Assembly: GCA_019456305.1 (NCBI GenBank) | Contig: VRUD01000020.1 | Location: 1-49,145 of the forward strand | Length of the DNA: 49,145 nucleotides | Reading direction: 5' to 3' | Source: Cytophagales bacterium | GTDB lineage: Bacteria > Bacteroidota > Bacteroidia > Cytophagales > VRUD01 | In this document: positions 1,319-42,833 of the stretch, piece by piece | How the letters are laid out: each line of letters begins with the position of its first letter | How positions within the stretch are numbered: the first letter of the stretch is position 1 | Notes under the pieces: model-generated | Told to the model about the DNA's origin: nothing | What the model saw: the letters and a program-made list of their open reading frames with translations, nothing else | Database searches by the model: none | Made by a program: the position numbers and the translations under genes

Positions 1319-2659
1319 ATGATAATTAACAACAAATATACCCATTATCTGTTTTTAGTACTCTTTATTTCACTGCCCATTTCAAAAGGCCTTGCCTCAA
1401 CGTGTGAAGTATTATTGATCTTTTTATCCCTACTCAGATTAAAAGATATAAATATTAAATATCTGATTAAGGAAAATAAACATGTAGTAAGTATTTGCTT
1501 GATTTTTCTTTGTTTTTTAGTTGGTTTACTTTACACGTCTGATCTGGTCAACGGCTTAATTGTTCTTAAACGTCATCATCGGCTCTTTGTTATTCCATTT
1601 ATTGTCCTGCTCAATCCTGGCCTTATTGAAAAATATGGCAGACAATACATATTAGCTTTTATTCAGGGAACTGCCTTTGCCTGCCTTGTTACAATAATTT
1701 TTTACTTAATTCCTGAAGCTCAACTAATCAAATTAATTAATAATATACCACTATTGCAAGAATATCCATTAAATAAAGATAGAATATTATTTGGACTTTA
1801 TTCACCTTTTATTGACAGGTTACAATTTAGTAATCTGATAGCTGTTGCTTCTATAAGCTCTTGTTATTTGTTTTTTGCGGAGCTTCCTCTGTGGAGTAAA
1901 CAGACCCGCCTGCCAAAGCCTTGGCGCAGGCAGGCAAATAAAAAAAGAATCTATATTCTATTTCTATTTTTAACATTAATAATTACATCTTCATTATTAG
2001 GTGGCAGAGGCGGGCAGTTAGGATTGTTAGCAGGTTTAATGGTTTTTTTTATTTGCTTGTTTTACAACTATTTGCAACCAAAACTGATGAAGCGAATTGG
2101 CAAATTTTTTGCGTCTTCTTTGTTCATGCTAATAATTATTTTTTTTGCTGTATCAATCCCTTACTGTGCTTATAAATTTATACCTCCGGTCCATAAACGT
2201 TATAATCAATTATTCTGGGAGCTGGAAGTATCTAAAAACTTAAAAAAGGACGATGAAAGAATTCGTGACTTCACCAGTGTGCGAAGAATTGTATCGTGGA
2301 AAAATACCTGGCAGTTAATAAAACAAAATCCTGTGTTGGGTGTAGGTACAGGAGATTATATATATGAACTAAGTAAAATCTATGAAAAAGACCAGTATGA
2401 TCTGCCTGTAAATTCCCACTCTCAATATTTGTATATTTGGGCCTCAATAGGTATTTGGGGATTGATAGTCTTTATTTTGGTTATCTTTTATTGGCTGTAT
2501 TCTCTCAGGAATGCACAAATAATCTTTATATATGGATTGTCATTCTTATCTTTTTACCTGACAACTATGCTTTTTGACGCATCATTAATTAAACAGATTG
2601 ATAGTATGACGTTCTCTTTATTCATGTCATTTATTGGTATATTAGGAAATAAGAAATGA
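1319..2659 (+). CDS. O-antigen ligase / polymerase-like membrane protein (Wzy_C family)
   Basis: A 446-residue polytopic membrane protein with about ten hydrophobic segments. Its large loop, near residues 290-365, contains the motif block around RRIVSWKNTWQLI, NPVLGVGTGDY and NSHSQYLYIWASIG, which is typical of the WaaL/Wzy_C fold. Such proteins transfer or polymerise undecaprenyl-linked glycans on the periplasmic face of the inner membrane. Downstream genes encode a methyltransferase and a GT4 glycosyltransferase, which supports a surface-glycan locus. A palindromic 30-bp insert (1905-1934) adds about ten basic residues (TRLPKPWRRQ) in a loop near residues 196-206 without breaking the frame. 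Ligase versus polymerase cannot be decided from sequence alone. Confidence 0.8.
   Translation: MIINNKYTHYLFLVLFISLPISKGLASTCEVLLIFLSLLRLKDINIKYLIKENKHVVSICLIFLCFLVGLLYTSDLVNGLIVLKRHHRLFVIPFIVLLNPGLIEKYGRQYILAFIQGTAFACLVTIIFYLIPEAQLIKLINNIPLLQEYPLNKDRILFGLYSPFIDRLQFSNLIAVASISSCYLFFAELPLWSKQTRLPKPWRRQANKKRIYILFLFLTLIITSSLLGGRGGQLGLLAGLMVFFICLFYNYLQPKLMKRIGKFFASSLFMLIIIFFAVSIPYCAYKFIPPVHKRYNQLFWELEVSKNLKKDDERIRDFTSVRRIVSWKNTWQLIKQNPVLGVGTGDYIYELSKIYEKDQYDLPVNSHSQYLYIWASIGIWGLIVFILVIFYWLYSLRNAQIIFIYGLSFLSFYLTTMLFDASLIKQIDSMTFSLFMSFIGILGNKK
1905..1934. repeat. CCCGCCTGC-type palindromic element inside the O-antigen ligase gene
   Basis: A 30-bp GC-rich segment starting cccgcctgcc and ending gcgcaggcagg, sharply unlike the surrounding AT-rich coding sequence. 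Its length is a multiple of three and it stays open. Related ends occur at 20454-20479 (mraY) and in the 39-bp element at 24890-24928. Confidence 0.65.
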
Positions 2660-3639: not shown

Positions 3640-3815
3640 GGTACTGGGCACTGGGTACTGGGTGATGGTAGTGAATAATGTCAGAAAGAATTACCAACCT
3701 GCCTACCGAAAGCAAATAACCCAGAACCCAGTAACCAGAGCCTAGTAGCTGTTTATTAATAGCACAAATAATAGATTTGAATATAAATTTCATTTAAACA
3801 TCGAAATTCCGATAC
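3640..3815. repeat. duplicated intergenic repeat, copy A (empty-site copy)
   Basis: Bases 3667-3815 match 24790-24988 closely over the shared parts: gtcagaaagaattaccaacc, a cccagtaaccagag stretch, aatagatttgaatataaatt and gaaattccgatac. The left end is a word-like array (actgggtactgggcactggg) that is roughly complementary to the later ccagaacccagtaacc words. This copy lacks the 39-bp and 16-bp insertions seen in copy B. The minus strand has an open frame (3554-3793) that parallels one in copy B. I treat it as non-coding until shown otherwise. Confidence 0.75.
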
Positions 3816-7344: not shown

Positions 7345-8700
7345 TTATTCGTACTTTATTTTCATCCAATTAGGATATATTGAGTGATGTATAGGCGCTG
7401 CTTTTTTATATATTGCTTTGCGTAATTCCTCAATATTGATCTTTCCCAGGGCTGAAATAAATATTGTTGTCTTCCCGCTCTTAGCAAAATAAGTGGATTT
7501 AAGTTCTTTTGTAGAGACGTTGCATGTTGAAGATTCTCTGAAATCCCGATTTGTCGGGGCAACGTCTCTACAAAAGGATGACTTATCCTGCCCGTTTAAC
7601 GAATAATTTGGATGGTATAGATCTATTTTATTAAACACCAGTATGGTAGGTTTGTTTGCAGCGCCTATTTCTGCCAGTGTACTGTTTACAACATCAATAT
7701 GTTCTTCAAAACAGGGATGGGCAACATCCACAACGTGCAATAACAGATCTGCTTCACACACCTCATCCAATGTTGACTTAAACGATTCTATCAGGCTATG
7801 GGGTAACTTTCTAATAAAACCAACAGTATCGGTCAGTAACAAAGGAATTTGGTTTTGAGGACTGGTGTCGTCCCTCGCCCCCCGTCTCTCATCCCTCGTC
7901 CCTCTTATAACTACCTTTCTGACTGTTGAATCCACAGTAGCAAACAGTTTGTTTTCGGCAAAAATATTTGAACCGGCCAGAAGATTCATCAAAGTAGATT
8001 TACCCGCATTGGTATATCCTACAAGTGCTACCCGAACCAACTTTCCCCTGGATTTACGCTGGGTTATCATCTGCCGGTCTATTTTTTCAAGATTCTTTTT
8101 AAGCAGTGATATTTTATTTCTCATAATTCTTCTGTCTGTTTCCAGTTCTTTTTCACCCGGACCTCGCAATCCAATACCCCCTTTTTGTCTTTCAAGATGT
8201 GTCCATAGCCCTTTTAAGCGCGGGAGCAAATACTCCATTTGTGCCAACTCTACCTGTGTTTTTGCCTGTGCGGTTTTAGCTCTAATAGCAAAGATATCTA
8301 ATATTAAGGCAGTGCGGTCCAGGATCTTGCATTGAAGCTCTTTTTCAAGGTTTGTTTGCTGAGCAGGAGAGAGTTCCTCATCAAAAATAACCATATCAAC
8401 ATCATTTGCTGTAATGTAAGCTTTAATTTCATTGAGCTTCCCTTTTCCTACAAAAGTTTTCGGATGGGGGAAATCATACCGTTGTGTAAAACTTTGTAAC
8501 GTTCTGGCCCCTGATGTTTCGGCTAAAAATGTTAATTCTTCCAGGTATTCCTTTGTCTTTGCCAAAGGTTGTTTTTCATTAATTAATGCAACCAAGATGG
8601 CTTTTTCTGGTTGCTGAATACTAGATGCTGGATGCCGGTTGGTTGATACTTGATGCATAATGTTTGCCTGTTGGGCATCTCTAAAAACTACACCATACAT
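7345..8700 (-). CDS. hflX: HflX-type ribosome-associated GTPase with in-frame insertions
   Basis: A 451-residue HflX. The N-terminal HflX domain (about 35-215) includes FVGKGKLNEI, VIFDEELSPAQQ and the RLKGLWTHLERQKGGIGLRG linker. The GTPase domain has G1 GYTNAGKST (228-236), G3 DTVGFIRKLP (from 291) and G4 NKID (357-360). The family splits stalled 70S ribosomes. Two insertions are visible: residues 267-284 (RGTRDERRGARDDT-like) between the switch I strand and G3, and residues about 375-399, encoded by a perfect inverted repeat, after G4. The long start at 8700 falls inside a mobile element, and Met15 (8658) just past it is a likely native start. A C-terminal truncation relative to longer HflX is possible. 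Confidence 0.93.
   Translation of the reverse strand: MYGVVFRDAQQANIMHQVSTNRHPASSIQQPEKAILVALINEKQPLAKTKEYLEELTFLAETSGARTLQSFTQRYDFPHPKTFVGKGKLNEIKAYITANDVDMVIFDEELSPAQQTNLEKELQCKILDRTALILDIFAIRAKTAQAKTQVELAQMEYLLPRLKGLWTHLERQKGGIGLRGPGEKELETDRRIMRNKISLLKKNLEKIDRQMITQRKSRGKLVRVALVGYTNAGKSTLMNLLAGSNIFAENKLFATVDSTVRKVVIRGTRDERRGARDDTSPQNQIPLLLTDTVGFIRKLPHSLIESFKSTLDEVCEADLLLHVVDVAHPCFEEHIDVVNSTLAEIGAANKPTILVFNKIDLYHPNYSLNGQDKSSFCRDVAPTNRDFRESSTCNVSTKELKSTYFAKSGKTTIFISALGKINIEELRKAIYKKAAPIHHSIYPNWMKIKYE
7506..7576. repeat. 71-bp inverted-repeat element inside hflX
   Basis: Perfect 18-bp arms (cttttgtagagacgttgc at 7506-7523, complement at 7559-7576) around a 35-bp loop. It encodes about 24 residues of HflX after the NKID motif without a stop. 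The gtagagacg word also builds the hairpin at 13194-13222. Confidence 0.8.
7849..7902. repeat. low-complexity in-frame insertion in hflX GTPase domain
   Basis: On the + strand this is a run of related words (gtcgtccctcgcc, gtctctcatccctcgtccc). It adds about 18 residues rich in Arg and Asp between the G2 and G3 regions, where HflX proteins normally run straight from the VVI strand into LLLTDTVGF. Confidence 0.55.
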
Positions 8701-8761
8701 TCCCCTCTATCAAGAGGGGCAAGGGGTGTGTTTTAAAAAATATGTAGTTTTTAGAGATGCC
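8673..8761. mobile_element. 88-bp MITE-like inverted-repeat element, copy 1
   Basis: Arms ggcatctctaaaaacta and its complement enclose a core with a cccctct...agagggg hairpin. The direct flanks are ctgtt (8668-8672) and ctgtt (8762-8766), as expected for a target-site duplication. The second copy at 42286-42374 is inverted and differs by about one internal base, so mobility is recent. No transposase is encoded, so a transposase must act in trans. The hflX long-start ATG lies inside it. Confidence 0.85.
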
Positions 8762-8831
8762 CTGTTAATACCCGATATTAGATATTGCCAGCCTTCGGCT
8801 GGTCACCCGCAGGGTGGGATACTGTCATTAT

Positions 8832-13193: not shown

Positions 13194-13222
13194 GTAGAGA
13201 CGCCCAATTTGGGCGTCTCTAC
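13194..13222. terminator. bidirectional hairpin between TPR gene and uvrA
   Basis: Perfect 14-bp inverted repeat (gtagagacgcccaa, then its complement at 13209-13222) with a one-base centre, placed between two convergent stop codons. It shares the gtagagacg word with the inverted repeat inside hflX, so it is also a member of a dispersed palindrome family. Confidence 0.7.
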
Positions 13223-16200
13223 ACGCTATGCATCATTTTCTCTCTTAAATACCGTGCAGTATGATTGTTCTTGACTTTGATCAGATCTTCAGGAACCCCG
13301 GCAAAGCAAACCCTTCCTCCCTTTTCACCGCCCTCAGGTCCAAGATCAATGATCCAATCAGCACATTTGACAACTTCCATATTGTGTTCAATGATCACAA
13401 CCGAATGGCCCTGCTCTACCAAAGCAACCATGGAAATAAGTAGTTTCTTGATATCATGCGTATGCAAGCCGGTGGTAGGTTCATCAAAAATGAAGAATAA
13501 AGCCCCCCCCACCCCATCCCGAGTACTCGGGAGGACTTTGCCATCGCTTTTGCCTTTGGCAATTGGGGTGGTGAAGTCCCCCCTTCGGGGGGATTTAGGG
13601 GGGCTGTTAGGGGGGCTGGCTGGGGGGCTGGTAGGGGGGCTATGGGGGCTTCCCTTTCCCAAAAAAGATGCAAGTTTAACCCGCTGAGCTTCACCCCCAC
13701 TGAGGGTATTGGAAGGCTGACCCAAACAAATATAACCTAACCCTACCTTTTGCAAAGGTATCAGTGCATTAATGATATTGGGTTTGTCTTTGAAAAAGAT
13801 CAGAGCGTCATCTACAGTCATGTCCAAAACTTCAGAAATATTGCCCCCCCCTCCAGCCTCACCTAAATCCGCCCCGACAATATTTCTTGCCGAATCGGTG
13901 AATCGCTTCGTTTTACTGCTCTCCGTTTCTCCGATTCCCCGTTTCTCCGATTCAAGGGGGCTTGGAGTTAGAGGCGGGCTGCTGGAGCTGGCATATCTAA
14001 CATCTAATATTTCCTGTTTGAACCTTTTTCCTTTGCAACTTTCGCAAGTTAGATTGATGTCAGCCAAAAACTGCATTTCAATAGTTACCGTGCCTGCTCC
14101 CTGGCAGGTATCGCACCTCCCGCCATCAACATTAAAAGAAAAATGAGCAGGTTTGTAGCTTCGGGCTTTAGATAATGGTTGGTCAGTATATAACTGACGG
14201 ATGAGATCATAAGCTTTTATATGGGTTACGGGATTAGAGCGTGAAGACTTACCAATTGGGTTCTGGTCAACAAATTCAACCTGGGAGATATACTCCAGGG
14301 CGCCTTCTATTTTCTCAAACTTGCCGGTATGTTCATCTTTGCCAATAGCACGATATCCGTTGCTACTGTTACTCTTCAAGAGTGCAGGGTATAAAATTTG
14401 TTTTACCAGGGTAGATTTTCCCGAACCGCTTACCCCGGTGATAACGCATATTACACCTATAGGAATTTTTATATCAATATTCTTCAAATTATTTTCGCTC
14501 GCCCCTTTTATGGCTATATGATCTTTCCATTTTCTGCGTAAACCGGGAACTTCAATTTTATCTTTTCCACTCAAATATTTTGCAGTATAAGTACTACCGT
14601 TGTTGACAAGTTCATCAAAAGCGCCTTCAAATACCAGCTTACCGCCATTAGAACCTGCATCCGGGCCAATGTCTATGATCCGGTCGGCCGCCTTCATGAT
14701 CAATTCATCGTGCTCAACCACAATTACAGTATTACCCAGATCTCTTAATGATTCTAAAACGCCCGTTAATTGGGTGGTATCTCTCGGATGAAGGCCTATG
14801 GTAGGCTCATCCAGTATGTACATAGAACCTACCAAAGCGCTGCCCAATGAAGTGGCTAGTTTAATTCTTTGAAATTCACCTCCCGAAAGCGTTGATGTTA
14901 AACGGTTAAGCGTTAAATATCCCAGTCCGACATTTTTTAAATAACTTAATCTGTATTTTATTTCTGTAAGAAGTCTCCGGGCAATTTTATTTTCATGGTC
15001 ATTGAATTTAGTAGATTCAAAAAATTCTAACACTCCCCCGACACCACCCCCCTTCCCTTCTGAACCGGAGAACCGGTGAGTGGGTGAATCGGTGAGCTTA
15101 GTCTGGTTCTCCCTATCTCCGATTCTCTGATTCTCTGATTCAGCAGGCTTTTTAGGGGCGGCTATGCTGCTAACAGGGAGTAAAAGCAGATCTGTAATTG
15201 ATTTACCTGCTATTTTAACATAAGAGGCGTCCTCCCTTAATCTTGTGCCTTTGCAATCAGGGCAGGTAGTTTTGCCCCGGTATCGTGAAAGTAATACTCT
15301 GTATTGTATCTTGTATGTCTTTCTTTCTATATATTTGAAAAAATCATTTAAACCACGGAAGTGCTCATTGCCTGTCCATAAGAGCTCTTTTTCCTTATCA
15401 GTAAGATCGTTATAGGGCCTGTGGATGGGAAAGTTGAAATTTACACTGTTACTTATCAGGGGCTTGAGCCATGCACCCATCTTTTCACTCCTCCAGGGCG
15501 CAATCGCTGCATCATATACCGACAAACTTTTATCAGGTATAACCAGGTCTGTATCTACACCCAATATTTTGCCAAAGCCCTCACACTTTTTGCAAGCGCC
15601 ATAAGGGTTGTTAAAGCTGAATAAGTTTACGCTGGGCTCTTCAAATAGTATTCCATCAGATTCAAAAAGATTAGAAAAATTTACGGTTTTTGAATTATCC
15701 CCTTTACTGTTTTTTAAATCATCATTCGTCAAAGATAATTCTAAAATACATTCCCCTTCCCCTTCAAAAAAAGCTGTTTGTACCGAGTCAGCTATCCTGA
15801 ACTTATTATCTTCATCGTTTTTCTTTACAAGGTTTCTGTCAATTACTATAAAAATCAGGGTCCCCTTTTCAAGATAGTGATTATGTATTAAATCTGTAAT
15901 TGCGGTCCCGAGTACTCGGGATGATTGTACTGATTGGGATTTGGAATTTGTTTTGAATTTTGGATTTCGAATTTCGTCCCGAGTACTCGGGATCGGATTT
16001 CGAATTTGATTTTCAAGTATATCCTCAATAAAATGAATCTCTCCATTCAGTGCAACCCTGGAATAACCTTTTTGCAGTAATATTTTCAGTTCATCCTGAA
16101 CGGTTCTGTGTTCTTTTATTTTTAAAGGCGCCAGTATCGAGAACTTGTCACCTTCATTAAACCGGTGAATATAATCCACAACATCCGATACAGAATCTTT

Positions 16201-16620
16201 TTTGACAACATTTCCTGATTGAGGTGAGATTGTTTTTCCAATTCTGGCAAAAAGTAATTTTAAATAGTCATAAATTTCAGTTGAGGTACCCACCGTTGAG
16301 CGTGGATTTTTGGTGTTTGTTTTTTGGCCAATGGCTATGGCTGGGGAAACGCCTTTTATGTAATCTACCTGCGGTTTTTCCATCCTTGCCAAAAACTGCC
16401 GGGCATAAGCACTGAGGCTTTCAACATACCTCCTTTGTCCTTCGGCAAAAAGGGTATCAAATACCAGGGAAGATTTACCTGAACCGGAAAGCCCCGTTAC
16501 CACTGTCAGCTTATTCCTTGGAAAGGCTACACTGAGATTTTTTAGATTATTTACCTTCGCGCCTTTGATGATGATATGATGTTTGGGATTGAGGGAGTCT
16601 ATGTTTATTTTTTTTGCCAT
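13219..16620 (-). CDS. uvrA: UvrABC excision nuclease subunit A with four in-frame insertions
   Basis: DNA-damage recognition ATPase of nucleotide excision repair. Walker A motifs are at 43-50 (GLSGSGKS) and 729-736 (GVSGSGKS). ABC signatures are at 578 (LSGGEFQRI) and 973 (LSGGEAQRV). Walker B motifs are [12 protein letters not shown] (600-611) and [12 protein letters not shown] (1042-1053). Zinc modules are C343/C346/C453/C456 and C836/C839/C859/C862. The 1133 residues exceed the usual 940-950 by about 180. The excess sits in four low-complexity blocks at residues about 203-240, 488-528, 877-927 and 990-1040, each encoded by palindrome-rich DNA. All core motifs survive. The last block separates the NBD2 signature from Walker B. 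Whether the protein works is untested, but the open frame implies selection for it. Confidence 0.97.
13504..13655. repeat. in-frame insertion 4 in uvrA (with palindrome copy 4)
   Basis: Encodes about 50 residues rich in Pro and Ser ([20 protein letters not shown]) between the second ABC signature and Walker B. It holds the CCCGAGTACTCGGG palindrome (13517-13532), an aagtccccccttcgggggga hairpin (13574-13604) also found in the M4 protease gene, and tandem gggggct words. Confidence 0.85.
13840..13992. repeat. in-frame insertion 3 in uvrA, shared with trhO
   Basis: Encodes residues 877-927. Bases 13891-13979 match 41289-41378 in trhO, in the same coding orientation and reading frame. 27 of 30 residues agree (both start SPPLTPS). 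It replaces the short turn between the ILDVRY strand and [10 protein letters not shown]. Confidence 0.85.
15037..15160. repeat. in-frame insertion 2 in uvrA
   Basis: Encodes about 38 residues (488-528) before [10 protein letters not shown]. It is built of repeated words (gaaccggagaaccggtgagtg, gattctctgattctctgatt) of the same style as the gaatcggtgaatcg words in insertion 3 and in trhO. Confidence 0.75.
15900..16015. repeat. in-frame insertion 1 in uvrA (palindrome copies 5 and 6)
   Basis: Two perfect tcccgagtactcggga palindromes (15906-15921, 15977-15992) with gatttcgaatttcg words between and beside them. It encodes about 38 residues (203-240) in the N-terminal signature-domain region. The two palindromes are read in different phases. 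Confidence 0.85.
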
Positions 16621-19915: not shown

Positions 19916-21175
19916 ATGTTTTACTATTTATTCGATTTTCTGGAAACAAAATATGACCTGGTTGGAGCGGGAGTTTTTCAATATATTTCATTCAGGTCCA
20001 TCATGGCCTCTATACTGTCGCTACTCGTTGCTATGTATTTTGGAAAACGGTTAATTGCATTATTACAAAGAAAACAGGTTGATGAGAACATAAGAGAATT
20101 GGGATTAGCCGGCCAGACAGACAAAAAGGGTACGCCTACTATGGGAGGTTTGATCATTCTGATCGGTATATTAATACCTACCTTGCTTTTTGCCAAGATA
20201 GATAATATTTATATCATACTGATGCTTATTTCTACAGTATGGTTAGGCTTCATTGGCTTCATAGATGACTATATAAAAGTCTTTAAAAAGAATAAAGAGG
20301 GGCTTGCCGGAAGATTCAAGATATTTGGCCAGGTGGGACTGGGAATAATAGTGGGACTAACACTCTATTTTCACGAAGATGTAGTGATCAGGCAATATTC
20401 TGCAGAAAGTATAGAGTTACAGTTAGCTCAATATGAAAAACAGTACCTGGCTTCCCGCCAAAGTACATTGGCAGGCGGGCCTGATACGGATTACGTAGAT
20501 ACGAGATCCACCAAAACAACGATCCCATTTTTGAAAAATAATGAATTTGATTACGGCAGCCTTGTCAGTTTCATCAACAAGGATTTAACATGGCTGGTTT
20601 ATGTCTTAATAGTTATATTTATTATCACAGCAGTTTCCAATGGCGCTAATTTAACTGATGGATTGGATGGACTCCTTGCCGGCTCTTCGGCAATTATCGG
20701 ATTGACATTGGCTGTATTGGCTTACATATCCGGTAACATTATTTTCTCTGATTACTTAAACATCATGTATATTCCTAATTCAGGAGAATTGGTTATCTTT
20801 TGCGGTGCTTTTGTTGGAGCTTGTGTGGGCTTCTTATGGTATAATTCTTATCCTGCCAAAGTTTTTATGGGGGATACCGGCAGCCTTACATTAGGAGGTA
20901 TTATTGCTGTGCTGGCGTTAACTATAAGAAAAGAACTTTTGATCCCCTTACTCTGCGGCATATTTTTAATTGAAATTGTGTCGGTTATTATACAGGTTTT
21001 ATATTTTAAATATACCAAAAAGAGATTTGGACAAGGAAAGCGTATATTCAAAATGGCTCCTTTACATCATCATTATCAAAAATTAAATTTCCATGAATCA
21101 AAAATAGTAATGCGTTTCCTTATTATCTGTATGATGCTGGCTGTTTTAACGCTTGTAACGCTGAAATTGAGATAG
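19916..21175 (+). CDS. mraY: phospho-N-acetylmuramoyl-pentapeptide transferase MraY
   Basis: A 419-residue polytopic enzyme that makes lipid I by moving phospho-MurNAc-pentapeptide onto undecaprenyl phosphate. Visible motifs are [11 protein letters not shown], the aspartates in [36 protein letters not shown], and the MAPLHHHYQ substrate loop. A periplasmic stretch between residues about 155 and 215 (typical of Bacteroidota) contains a 26-bp palindromic segment read as SRQSTLAGG. It is translationally close to murE (4-base gap). The usual followers murD, ftsW and murG are absent. Confidence 0.97.
20454..20479. repeat. CCCGCC...GGCGGG palindromic segment inside mraY
   Basis: The 26-bp segment cccgccaaagtacattgg plus caggcggg shares its ends with the elements at 1905-1934 and 24890-24928. 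It is read through in frame in the lineage-variable loop of MraY, so a native origin cannot be excluded. Confidence 0.45.
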
Positions 21176-24679: not shown

Positions 24680-24889
24680 CGCTCTATATTTACAATATCC
24701 AATAGGACATAGCGTTGTCAGTTGATTAAAAAATGAAATCTCGATATATTGAAGTGAAATTAAGATAAAGTTGCTGGTTGCTGGGTAAAGGTAGTGATTA
24801 CTGTCAGAAAGAATTACCAACCTGCCTGCCGAAAGCAAATAATCCAGAACCCAGTAACCAGAGCCCAGTAGCTGTTCATTAAGAGCACA

Positions 24890-24928
24890 CCTGCCCGCCA
24901 ACAGCAAAGCAAAAGCAATGCAGGCGGG
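24890..24928. repeat. 39-bp GC-rich element inserted in copy B
   Basis: Present after agcaca and before aataatag in copy B and absent from the same point in copy A, a clean empty/filled pair. Ends are cctgcccgcc and gcaggcggg. The length is a multiple of three. It is related at the ends to the segments inside the O-antigen ligase gene and mraY. Confidence 0.75.
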
Positions 24929-24958
24929 AATAATAGATTTGAATATAAATTTCATTTA

Positions 24959-42285: not shown

Positions 42286-42374
42286 GGGCATCTCTAAAAA
42301 CTACATATTTTTTAAAACACACCCCTTGCCCCTCTTGATAGAGGGGAATATATGGTGTAGTTTTTAGAGATGCC
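42286..42374. mobile_element. 88-bp MITE-like inverted-repeat element, copy 2
   Basis: Inverted copy of 8673-8761, with about one internal difference. Arms are a perfect 20-bp inverted repeat and the flanks are ctaatg on both sides (42281-42286 and 42375-42380). The yqeY stop codon TAG begins in the right flank, so the insertion lies exactly at the gene end and splits the yqeY-cvpA gap. Confidence 0.87.
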
Positions 42375-42833
42375 CTAATGATAAAATACTAATAGCTTTT
42401 TAACCAAATCAGCAATAACTTTTCCATCTGCCTGGCCTGCTAATTCCTTCGTGGCAATCCCCATTACTTTACCCATATCCGAAGGAGCCGATGCCCCAAT
42501 CTTTTTTATGATCTCTTTTAATTTATCGGTAAGCTCATTATCAGATAGCTGTGCCGGCAAATATTTTTCAATTATTTTCAACTCTGCTAATTCAACTCCT
42601 TCAAGATCTTTTCTACTTTGTGATGCATAAATTTCGGCAGATTCTTTTCGCTGCTTTACTGCTTTCATCAAGAGCTTTAATTCAGCATCTTTGGATAATT
42701 CACCCCCGGAACCCTTTTCAGTTTCGGCTATTAATATCAGTGATTTAACGCTTCTTAAAGCGAGCAAAGCAACCCGATCTTTGGATAGCATCGCTTTTTT
42801 GATATCAGCATCAATTTGTTCTTTTAAGTTCAT
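42375..42833 (-). CDS. yqeY: GatB/YqeY domain protein
   Basis: A 152-residue protein with the YqeY pattern: an N-terminal helical part (LKEQIDADIKKAMLSKDRVALLALRSVKS) and a C-terminal part (AELKIIEKYLPAQLSDNEL, GKVMGIATKELAGQADGKVIADLVKKLL). The family resembles the tail domain of GatB and is thought to bind tRNA, with the cellular role poorly defined. Its ATG overlaps the TGA of the upstream TPR gene (ATGA). The last residues VFYH and the stop abut the mobile element, so the native C-terminus may have been slightly altered. Confidence 0.93.
   Translation of the reverse strand: MNLKEQIDADIKKAMLSKDRVALLALRSVKSLILIAETEKGSGGELSKDAELKLLMKAVKQRKESAEIYASQSRKDLEGVELAELKIIEKYLPAQLSDNELTDKLKEIIKKIGASAPSDMGKVMGIATKELAGQADGKVIADLVKKLLVFYH

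Follow-up and report, generated by a model that had tools for sequence, protein, structure and literature searches.

The window, which is the whole analysed stretch of 49,145 nucleotides, holds two copies of a dispersed host repeat of about 150 bp that occurs in many copies in the source genome, and one of the two carries a 39-bp palindromic element tagged with CCTG (Table 1). The filled copy reads TTAAGAGCACA, then CCTGCCCGCCAACAGCAAAGCAAAAGCAATGCAGGCGGG as the insert and then AATAATAGATTTG, whereas its twin passes from TTAATAGCACA directly into AATAATAGATTTG. The exact 39-bp empty-site/filled-site pair proposed in the preliminary description was confirmed; the insert occupies 24890-24928, its junction cannot be shifted by even one base, and the twin is uninterrupted at 3766/3767. 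Between the two copies, identity is 91% across the 116 nt upstream and 100% across the 30 nt downstream. The source assembly comprises 4.25 Mb in 159 contigs, and the filled/empty evidence refers to paralogous sites inside this one genome, with which the nearest relatives compared share order only. Two further members of the family lie within genes of the window, where likeness to the element had already been noticed. The segment in the O-antigen ligase-like ORF is a 30-mer in opposite orientation to the element at 24890, with one T-type and one C-type end (see below) and one mismatch. The segment in mraY, previously delimited as 20454-20479, also proved to be a 30-mer; as a filled/empty test it was uninformative, since the relatives of mraY vary in length at the loop of insertion.

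Table 1. Coordinates of the CCTG-tagged element, its host repeat and related features in the window.
Feature	Position	Strand	Remarks
CCTG-tagged palindromic element, 39 bp	24890..24928	+	Absent without trace from 20 of 25 host-repeat copies
CCTG tag, unpaired, 5' of the hairpin foot	24890..24893	+	DNA fold; invariant among all perfect-end copies
Left stem CCCGCC	24894..24899	+	
Variable core, 19 nt	24900..24918	+	11 distinct perfect-end 39-mers, mean core identity only 37%
Right stem GGCGGG, flush with the element end	24923..24928	+	
Host repeat, filled copy, carries the element at 24890-24928	24774..24958	+	
Host repeat, empty copy	3651..3796	+	Junction 3766/3767
30-bp family member in O-antigen ligase-like ORF 1319-2659	1905..1934	-	Encodes TRLPKPWRRQ
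30-bp family member in mraY (19916-21175), length-variable loop	20450..20479	+	Degenerate left end, GCTT for CCTG
Possible truncated relative (CCTGCCTGCCGAAAGC) within the host repeat	24821..24836	+	Missing from copies L016, L017 and L019; boundary not clean, lead only

The family ends have the form CCTGCC[C/T]GCC…GGCAGGC[G/A]GG, with a flush hairpin behind a 4-nt CCTG tag, and occur as a C-type (CCTGCCCGCC…GGCAGGCGGG) and a T-type (CCTGCCTGCC…GGCAGGCAGG). The ends first described as cctgcccgcc...gcaggcggg are indeed common to the family, but they do not form a simple inverted repeat, because CCTG remains unpaired and the hairpin is made of CCCGCC and GGCGGG. In single-stranded DNA folds of the 39-mer and of the 21-mer CCTGCCCCGACAAAGTCGGGG, everything except CCTG is paired, up to the last base. 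The 21-mer CCTGTCCGCCAGACAGGCGGG has nearly the same fold as the tag-unpaired form, and the 30-mer favours another register. Alignment of the 11 distinct perfect-end 39-mers gave 20 invariant end positions and a weak core consensus. Decay after insertion was rejected as the source of the variable cores because it cannot spare the ends. Hypermutation of the core after insertion was likewise ruled out, as duplicated element copies (L132/L078 and L113/L107) retain identical or nearly identical cores while their flanks differ. Capture of host DNA was ruled out too, since nothing in the sampled genome closely matches the cores apart from duplicated copies. The simplest reading, though the least settled point of this study, would be long-lived active lineages that depend on the ends alone to move and lose their old copies fast.

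A total of 25 genomic copies of the host repeat were compared at the junction; 20 are empty, two contain a 39-bp insert and three a 21-bp insert, and all five inserts lie at one point, between AGCACA and AATAATAG. The two 39-mers differ at 6 of 19 core positions (AACAGCAAAGCAAAAGCAA versus ACCCACAAAGCTAATGCCA), and the host arms around them at 1 of 95 bases. Copies L003 and L004 are identical to the window copy across 95 bp upstream, yet they are empty, so the difference between filled and empty sites is not due to chance. The four copies L001-L004 differ from each other at 0-1 of 95 bases and display the states empty, empty, 39-mer A and 39-mer B; more than one insertion event at the junction therefore follows. 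On these sequence comparisons one old, decayed insertion does not explain the junction states and repeated insertion would, while precise excision combined with core exchange is less likely. Filled copies are scattered among empty ones in a rough tree of the host repeat. The 21-mer CCTGCCCCGACAAAGTCGGGG sits at the same junction as the 39-mers, with a different hairpin and the CCTG tag in common. Since different hairpins behind one tag insert at one site, we argue that the tag is probably part of the recognition signal.

To find empty sites, the 120 bp to the left and right of each element were used to scan the sampled genome for adjoining flanks. Sister sites with a gap of exactly 0, and with neither target duplication nor deletion, were found for about 14 elements in nine distinct contexts; their flanks are up to 100% identical. 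Because these exact empty sites come from nine independent contexts, the earlier proposal that the units move as discrete pieces is well supported, in the sense of discrete-unit insertion or scarless precise excision. Two of the nine contexts are gene pairs. In the first, the T9SS type A sorting domain (TIGR04183) of a 995-aa ORF holds an in-frame 21-bp element, so that it reads SGYLPAGQAGAKGIY where two T9SS-domain paralogs carry the short form SGYAKGIY. The empty form extends for 77 residues over 71 positions of the family profile, compared with 84 in the filled copy. In the second gene pair, the flanks (99% and 93% identical) meet directly in one copy, whereas the other has a 39-mer between them; this 39-mer lies within another repeat (GTCATTCCGG…GAATCTCCTG), which elsewhere carries a 60-bp version composed of the 39-mer and a nested 21-mer. 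Tabulation of the flanking bases, as the preliminary description had suggested, gave A before the insert in 38 of 53 C-type copies and an otherwise loose target. Heptamer-like tandem repeats dominated an unbiased search for precise inserts of any kind, so that filtering was needed. Degenerate heptamer arrays (CAGTCGG, CCAGTAC, TCCAACA, CGAAGTA) are very common genome-wide, for example at L042:17177-17240 and L109:792-890, and seem to be frequent landing sites for short palindromes.

Nested copies of 45 (24+21), 51 (30+21) and 60 (39+21) bp were found, with the 21-mer always at the same internal position, and two 24-mers are located in the loop of a 21-mer. A 28-mer CCTG element occupies the loop of the hairpin CCCCTCTA/TCAAGAGGGG, and the same hairpin is empty at 28 other places. 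CCTG elements lie within GTAG-tagged REPs in another genome of the phylum (G113). A single-stranded or cruciform target is plausible, because the elements nest in each other, in hairpin loops and in GTAG REPs.

Other palindromes were observed alongside the family. Positions 8673-8762 and 42286-42375 of the window are 90-nt inverted copies, 99% complementary, with the hairpin CCCCTCTATCAAGAGGGG, which elsewhere in the genome has the 28-mer CCTG element in its loop. The palindrome ATCCCGAGTACTCGGGAT has eight copies in the window (2745, 3593, 7100, 13514, 15903, 15974, 18804 and 24956), some of them inside ORF 13219-16620; in a 1.24-Mb genome sample its 10-mers show an enrichment of about 130-fold, and its copies of 17-21 bp also have exact empty sites. 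The loop of the palindrome CCCCGCACATAAATTTATGTGCGGGG (L106:442-504, L159:11917, L114:12697, L068:6277, L064:2385) holds unrelated sequences of about 18-42 bp, with constant stems and interiors that vary between loci, as in the CCTG family. The palindrome TAGAGACGTTGCATGCAACGTCTCTAC is split at its centre by a 33-bp insert at 7525-7558 of the window, and about 40 empty matches elsewhere support this.

In a 2.42-Mb sample of the source genome (57% of the genome), 94 family copies were counted, allowing at most one mismatch per end. A whole-genome scan detected 56 perfect C-type copies and none for the reversed-pattern control. In a histogram over lengths 24 to 45, perfect C-type ends pile up at few lengths, mainly 30 (14 copies) and 39 (12 copies). 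The preliminary description had called for copies to be tabulated; their lengths proved not to be random and their ends exact and common to the copies. The length is divisible by three (21, 24, 30, 33, 39 and others) in 79 of the 94 copies. ORFs of at least 100 aa contain 60 of the 94, oriented either way and in several reading frames; coding sites are nevertheless under-used, given that ORFs make up 86% of the sequence. Within ORFs of at least 150 aa, 51 of 58 elements are multiples of three, and the ORFs continue through them, with peptides such as LPAKGLWQAG, PARQRPMAGG and CLPNNRQGKGRQAG. Proteins of Bacteroidetes and Omnitrophota MAGs commonly contain peptides of the LPA..RQAG type, a pattern that fits the element family.

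A scan of named genomes listed matches to C-type elements in MAGs of Bacteroidetes, Ignavibacteria, Omnitrophota, Patescibacteria, Chloroflexi, Desulfobacterota and Cloacimonadota; some of the listed matches in high-GC genomes are probably due to chance. Among the matches listed, 57 of 73 copies from records below 60% GC have lengths divisible by three, whereas the lengths that the search pattern allowed would give 40% (p about 4e-11). The idea that a codon-multiple length helps the units to survive in genes thus holds at the family level, both in the source genome and in these low-GC records, but not as a filter shown to act gene by gene, as 53 of 60 copies in ORFs and 26 of 34 between ORFs are multiples of three (difference not significant, p=0.15). 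Since intergenic copies are strongly biased as well, the preference for multiples of three is a property of element lineages. The distribution within the phylum is patchy, with 13 of 296 sampled genomes element-positive. Viral contigs are almost without the element, and carriage by phages was rejected on the basis of only 23 matches in 2.9 million of them.

The source genome encodes seven Y1 (PF01797) genes; in a by-eye comparison of motifs, five look like subclass 1.2 and the other two like subclass 2.6 of a published classification (PMC6006769). That these IS200/RAYT-like proteins specifically mobilise the element as a cognate REP-RAYT pair is conceivable but rather doubtful; it would be a special case of the explanation preferred below and compatible with it. 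The tag-plus-hairpin architecture and the blunt insertion match the REP/TnpA-REP mode (PMC6006769), composite CCTG elements lie about 200 bp or less from two of the seven genes, and elements occur near a RAYT subfamily (NCBIfam NF047646) in two other genomes, G113 and G273. However, the elements in G113 are inserted in the RAYT's own GTAG-tagged REPs, so that their proximity results from nesting. No member of the subfamily occurs in the window genome, and none in the genome with the most elements; RAYT was rejected on these grounds as a mobiliser by proximity. Moreover, Y1 genes are present in 12 of 13 element-positive versus 8 of 13 element-negative genomes (p=0.16), one genome (G206) has the element and no Y1, and several Y1 genes of the source genome are flanked by other hairpin families. 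Near elements from other phyla (727 kb), no Y1 genes were found with the window-genome Y1 queries, and RAYT queries gave one weak match. No dedicated transposase was found in the Y1/RAYT comparisons of the source genome and of the element-positive and element-negative genomes. We therefore name no enzyme, as Y1 presence does not discriminate, the elements near RAYT in G113 are nested in GTAG repeats and the subfamily is missing from the window genome. Four source-genome Y1 genes resembling subclass 1.2 (L032, L033, L034 and L035) are surrounded by short hairpins, for example AGCCCTGAAAGGGC and CGCTCCTAACGGAGCG; subclass 1.2 is listed as being without REPs (PMC6006769). A RAYT-like gene at L037:892-1749 contains a repetitive in-frame insertion (SSDDWMIRGDGSSDEC...) between the HUH and tyrosine motifs. 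A RAYT gene from another genome of the phylum (L360:1962-2543) has an in-frame insertion of about 30 residues between the HUH and tyrosine regions, which apparently consists of its own REP sequence.

Taken together, the CCTG unit is likely a non-autonomous mobile palindromic element of the REP/RPE-like kind. As the sequence comparisons show, a unit with invariant 10-nt ends forms a blunt, scar-free insert at sites uninterrupted in sister copies, and its copies are dispersed, in either orientation, nested mutually and in other hairpins, and in frame through genes. The highly variable cores count against this explanation, as recently amplified element families usually look different, and so does the failure of the Y1/RAYT comparisons to yield a cognate transposase. 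An unlikely alternative is precise loss, by which the repeat would have been ancestrally filled and the element cleanly excised from most copies, for example by hairpin-mediated deletion. Insertion and scar-free excision are indistinguishable without an outgroup strain, and the scatter of filled copies over the host-repeat tree is in favour of loss; against it are the absence of flanking direct repeats for slippage, the 20 of 25 empty copies with three unrelated inserts at one junction, and the T9SS family profile, which fits the empty form. Spread of filled and empty versions by homologous recombination among host copies, with the 39-mer itself immobile, is plausible from the near identity of L001-L004, but such gene conversion fails for the same ends in nine unrelated contexts, in genes and nested in other elements. 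It survives strictly only for the host repeat of the 39-mer, filled sites elsewhere being without common flanking homology, and we consider it very unlikely. Stable intergenic hairpins can stop transcription or protect mRNA, and the hairpins might accordingly be regulatory or terminator structures under selection rather than mobile DNA. The location of most copies in ORFs in either orientation and several frames, the sister loci without the element and the lack of any Rfam match in the window make this the least credible of the readings considered.

For a mobile palindromic element, we propose that the hairpin would be exposed in single-stranded DNA and cut at the CCTG tag, and that an enzyme supplied in trans would join it into a new site without target duplication, like the HUH/Y1 single-strand transposases. 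Only open copies with a length divisible by three would survive in genes, giving rise to lineages of 21, 24, 30, 33, 36 or 39 bp; the ends would be retained since only copies with intact ends move again, and the cores would drift. More tentatively, the CCTG palindromes could constitute a third cross-phylum superfamily of mobile hairpins beside GTAG and CGTC, with invariant 10-nt ends, a free-sequence core whose length in steps of three is selected for passage through genes, and an unrecognised trans-acting mobiliser across distant phyla. Tiny in-frame palindromes are a candidate route for proteins to gain new loops, and have so far been described mainly in Rickettsia and some REP families. The CCTG family would explain the proline/glycine-rich peptides (LPA..RQAG, PAR..AGG) inside otherwise normal proteins. 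The presence of the same ends in several phyla, together with base-precise empty sites within one genome, makes the mover and the crossing of lineages directly testable.

Among known systems, the GTAG REPs with their RAYT/TnpA-REP proteins (PMC3733652, PMC6006769) share with the CCTG family a short hairpin whose one foot bears a fixed tetranucleotide and whose other end is flush, many dispersed copies, and in-frame intragenic copies, which are occasional in REPs. They differ in the tag, which is CCTG in every perfect-end copy here and GT[AG]G in REPs, and in being mainly extragenic and species-specific, whereas the CCTG family lies mostly in ORFs, combines invariant ends with a free core, has identical ends across phyla and is without a cognate RAYT found. 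The REPs of TnpA-REP subclasses 2.4 and 2.6 (PMC6006769) come from the same phylum, Bacteroidetes; those of subclass 2.4 insert in frame within tnpA-REP genes, and the hairpins of subclass 2.6 are atypical. Both are defined by flanking their own tnpA gene, while the CCTG family does not appear to be tied to one. CGTC-tagged repeats, including RPE-4 and RPE-6 of Rickettsia conorii (PMC3733652), are also tagged hairpins found in frame in protein-coding genes, with no dedicated transposase known. In contrast to them, the CCTG family has CCTG ends with GGCGGG or GGCAGG on the other side, spans lineages and mostly keeps to set lengths between 21 and 42 bp, in steps of three. Rickettsia palindromic elements of the RPE-1 type (PMC10969869) are likewise selfish palindromes persisting within genes, where they are translated in frame as peptides, but they are about 150 bp long compared with 39 bp here, are confined in description to Rickettsia and lack tag-plus-hairpin ends of CCTG sequence. 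MITEs (PMC10969869) resemble the element in being small and non-autonomous with terminal complementary sequences; the CCTG element differs in having no target site duplication (gap 0), in being far shorter and in having ends that pair as one hairpin with the tag unpaired. No description of a CCTG family was found in the literature searched, subscription literature being outside its scope, which is not proof of absence. We file the family as neither GTAG nor CGTC because it lacks the defining tag of both. It nevertheless works like REPs and Rickettsia palindromic elements, as a tagged hairpin with blunt spread and an in-frame life in genes.
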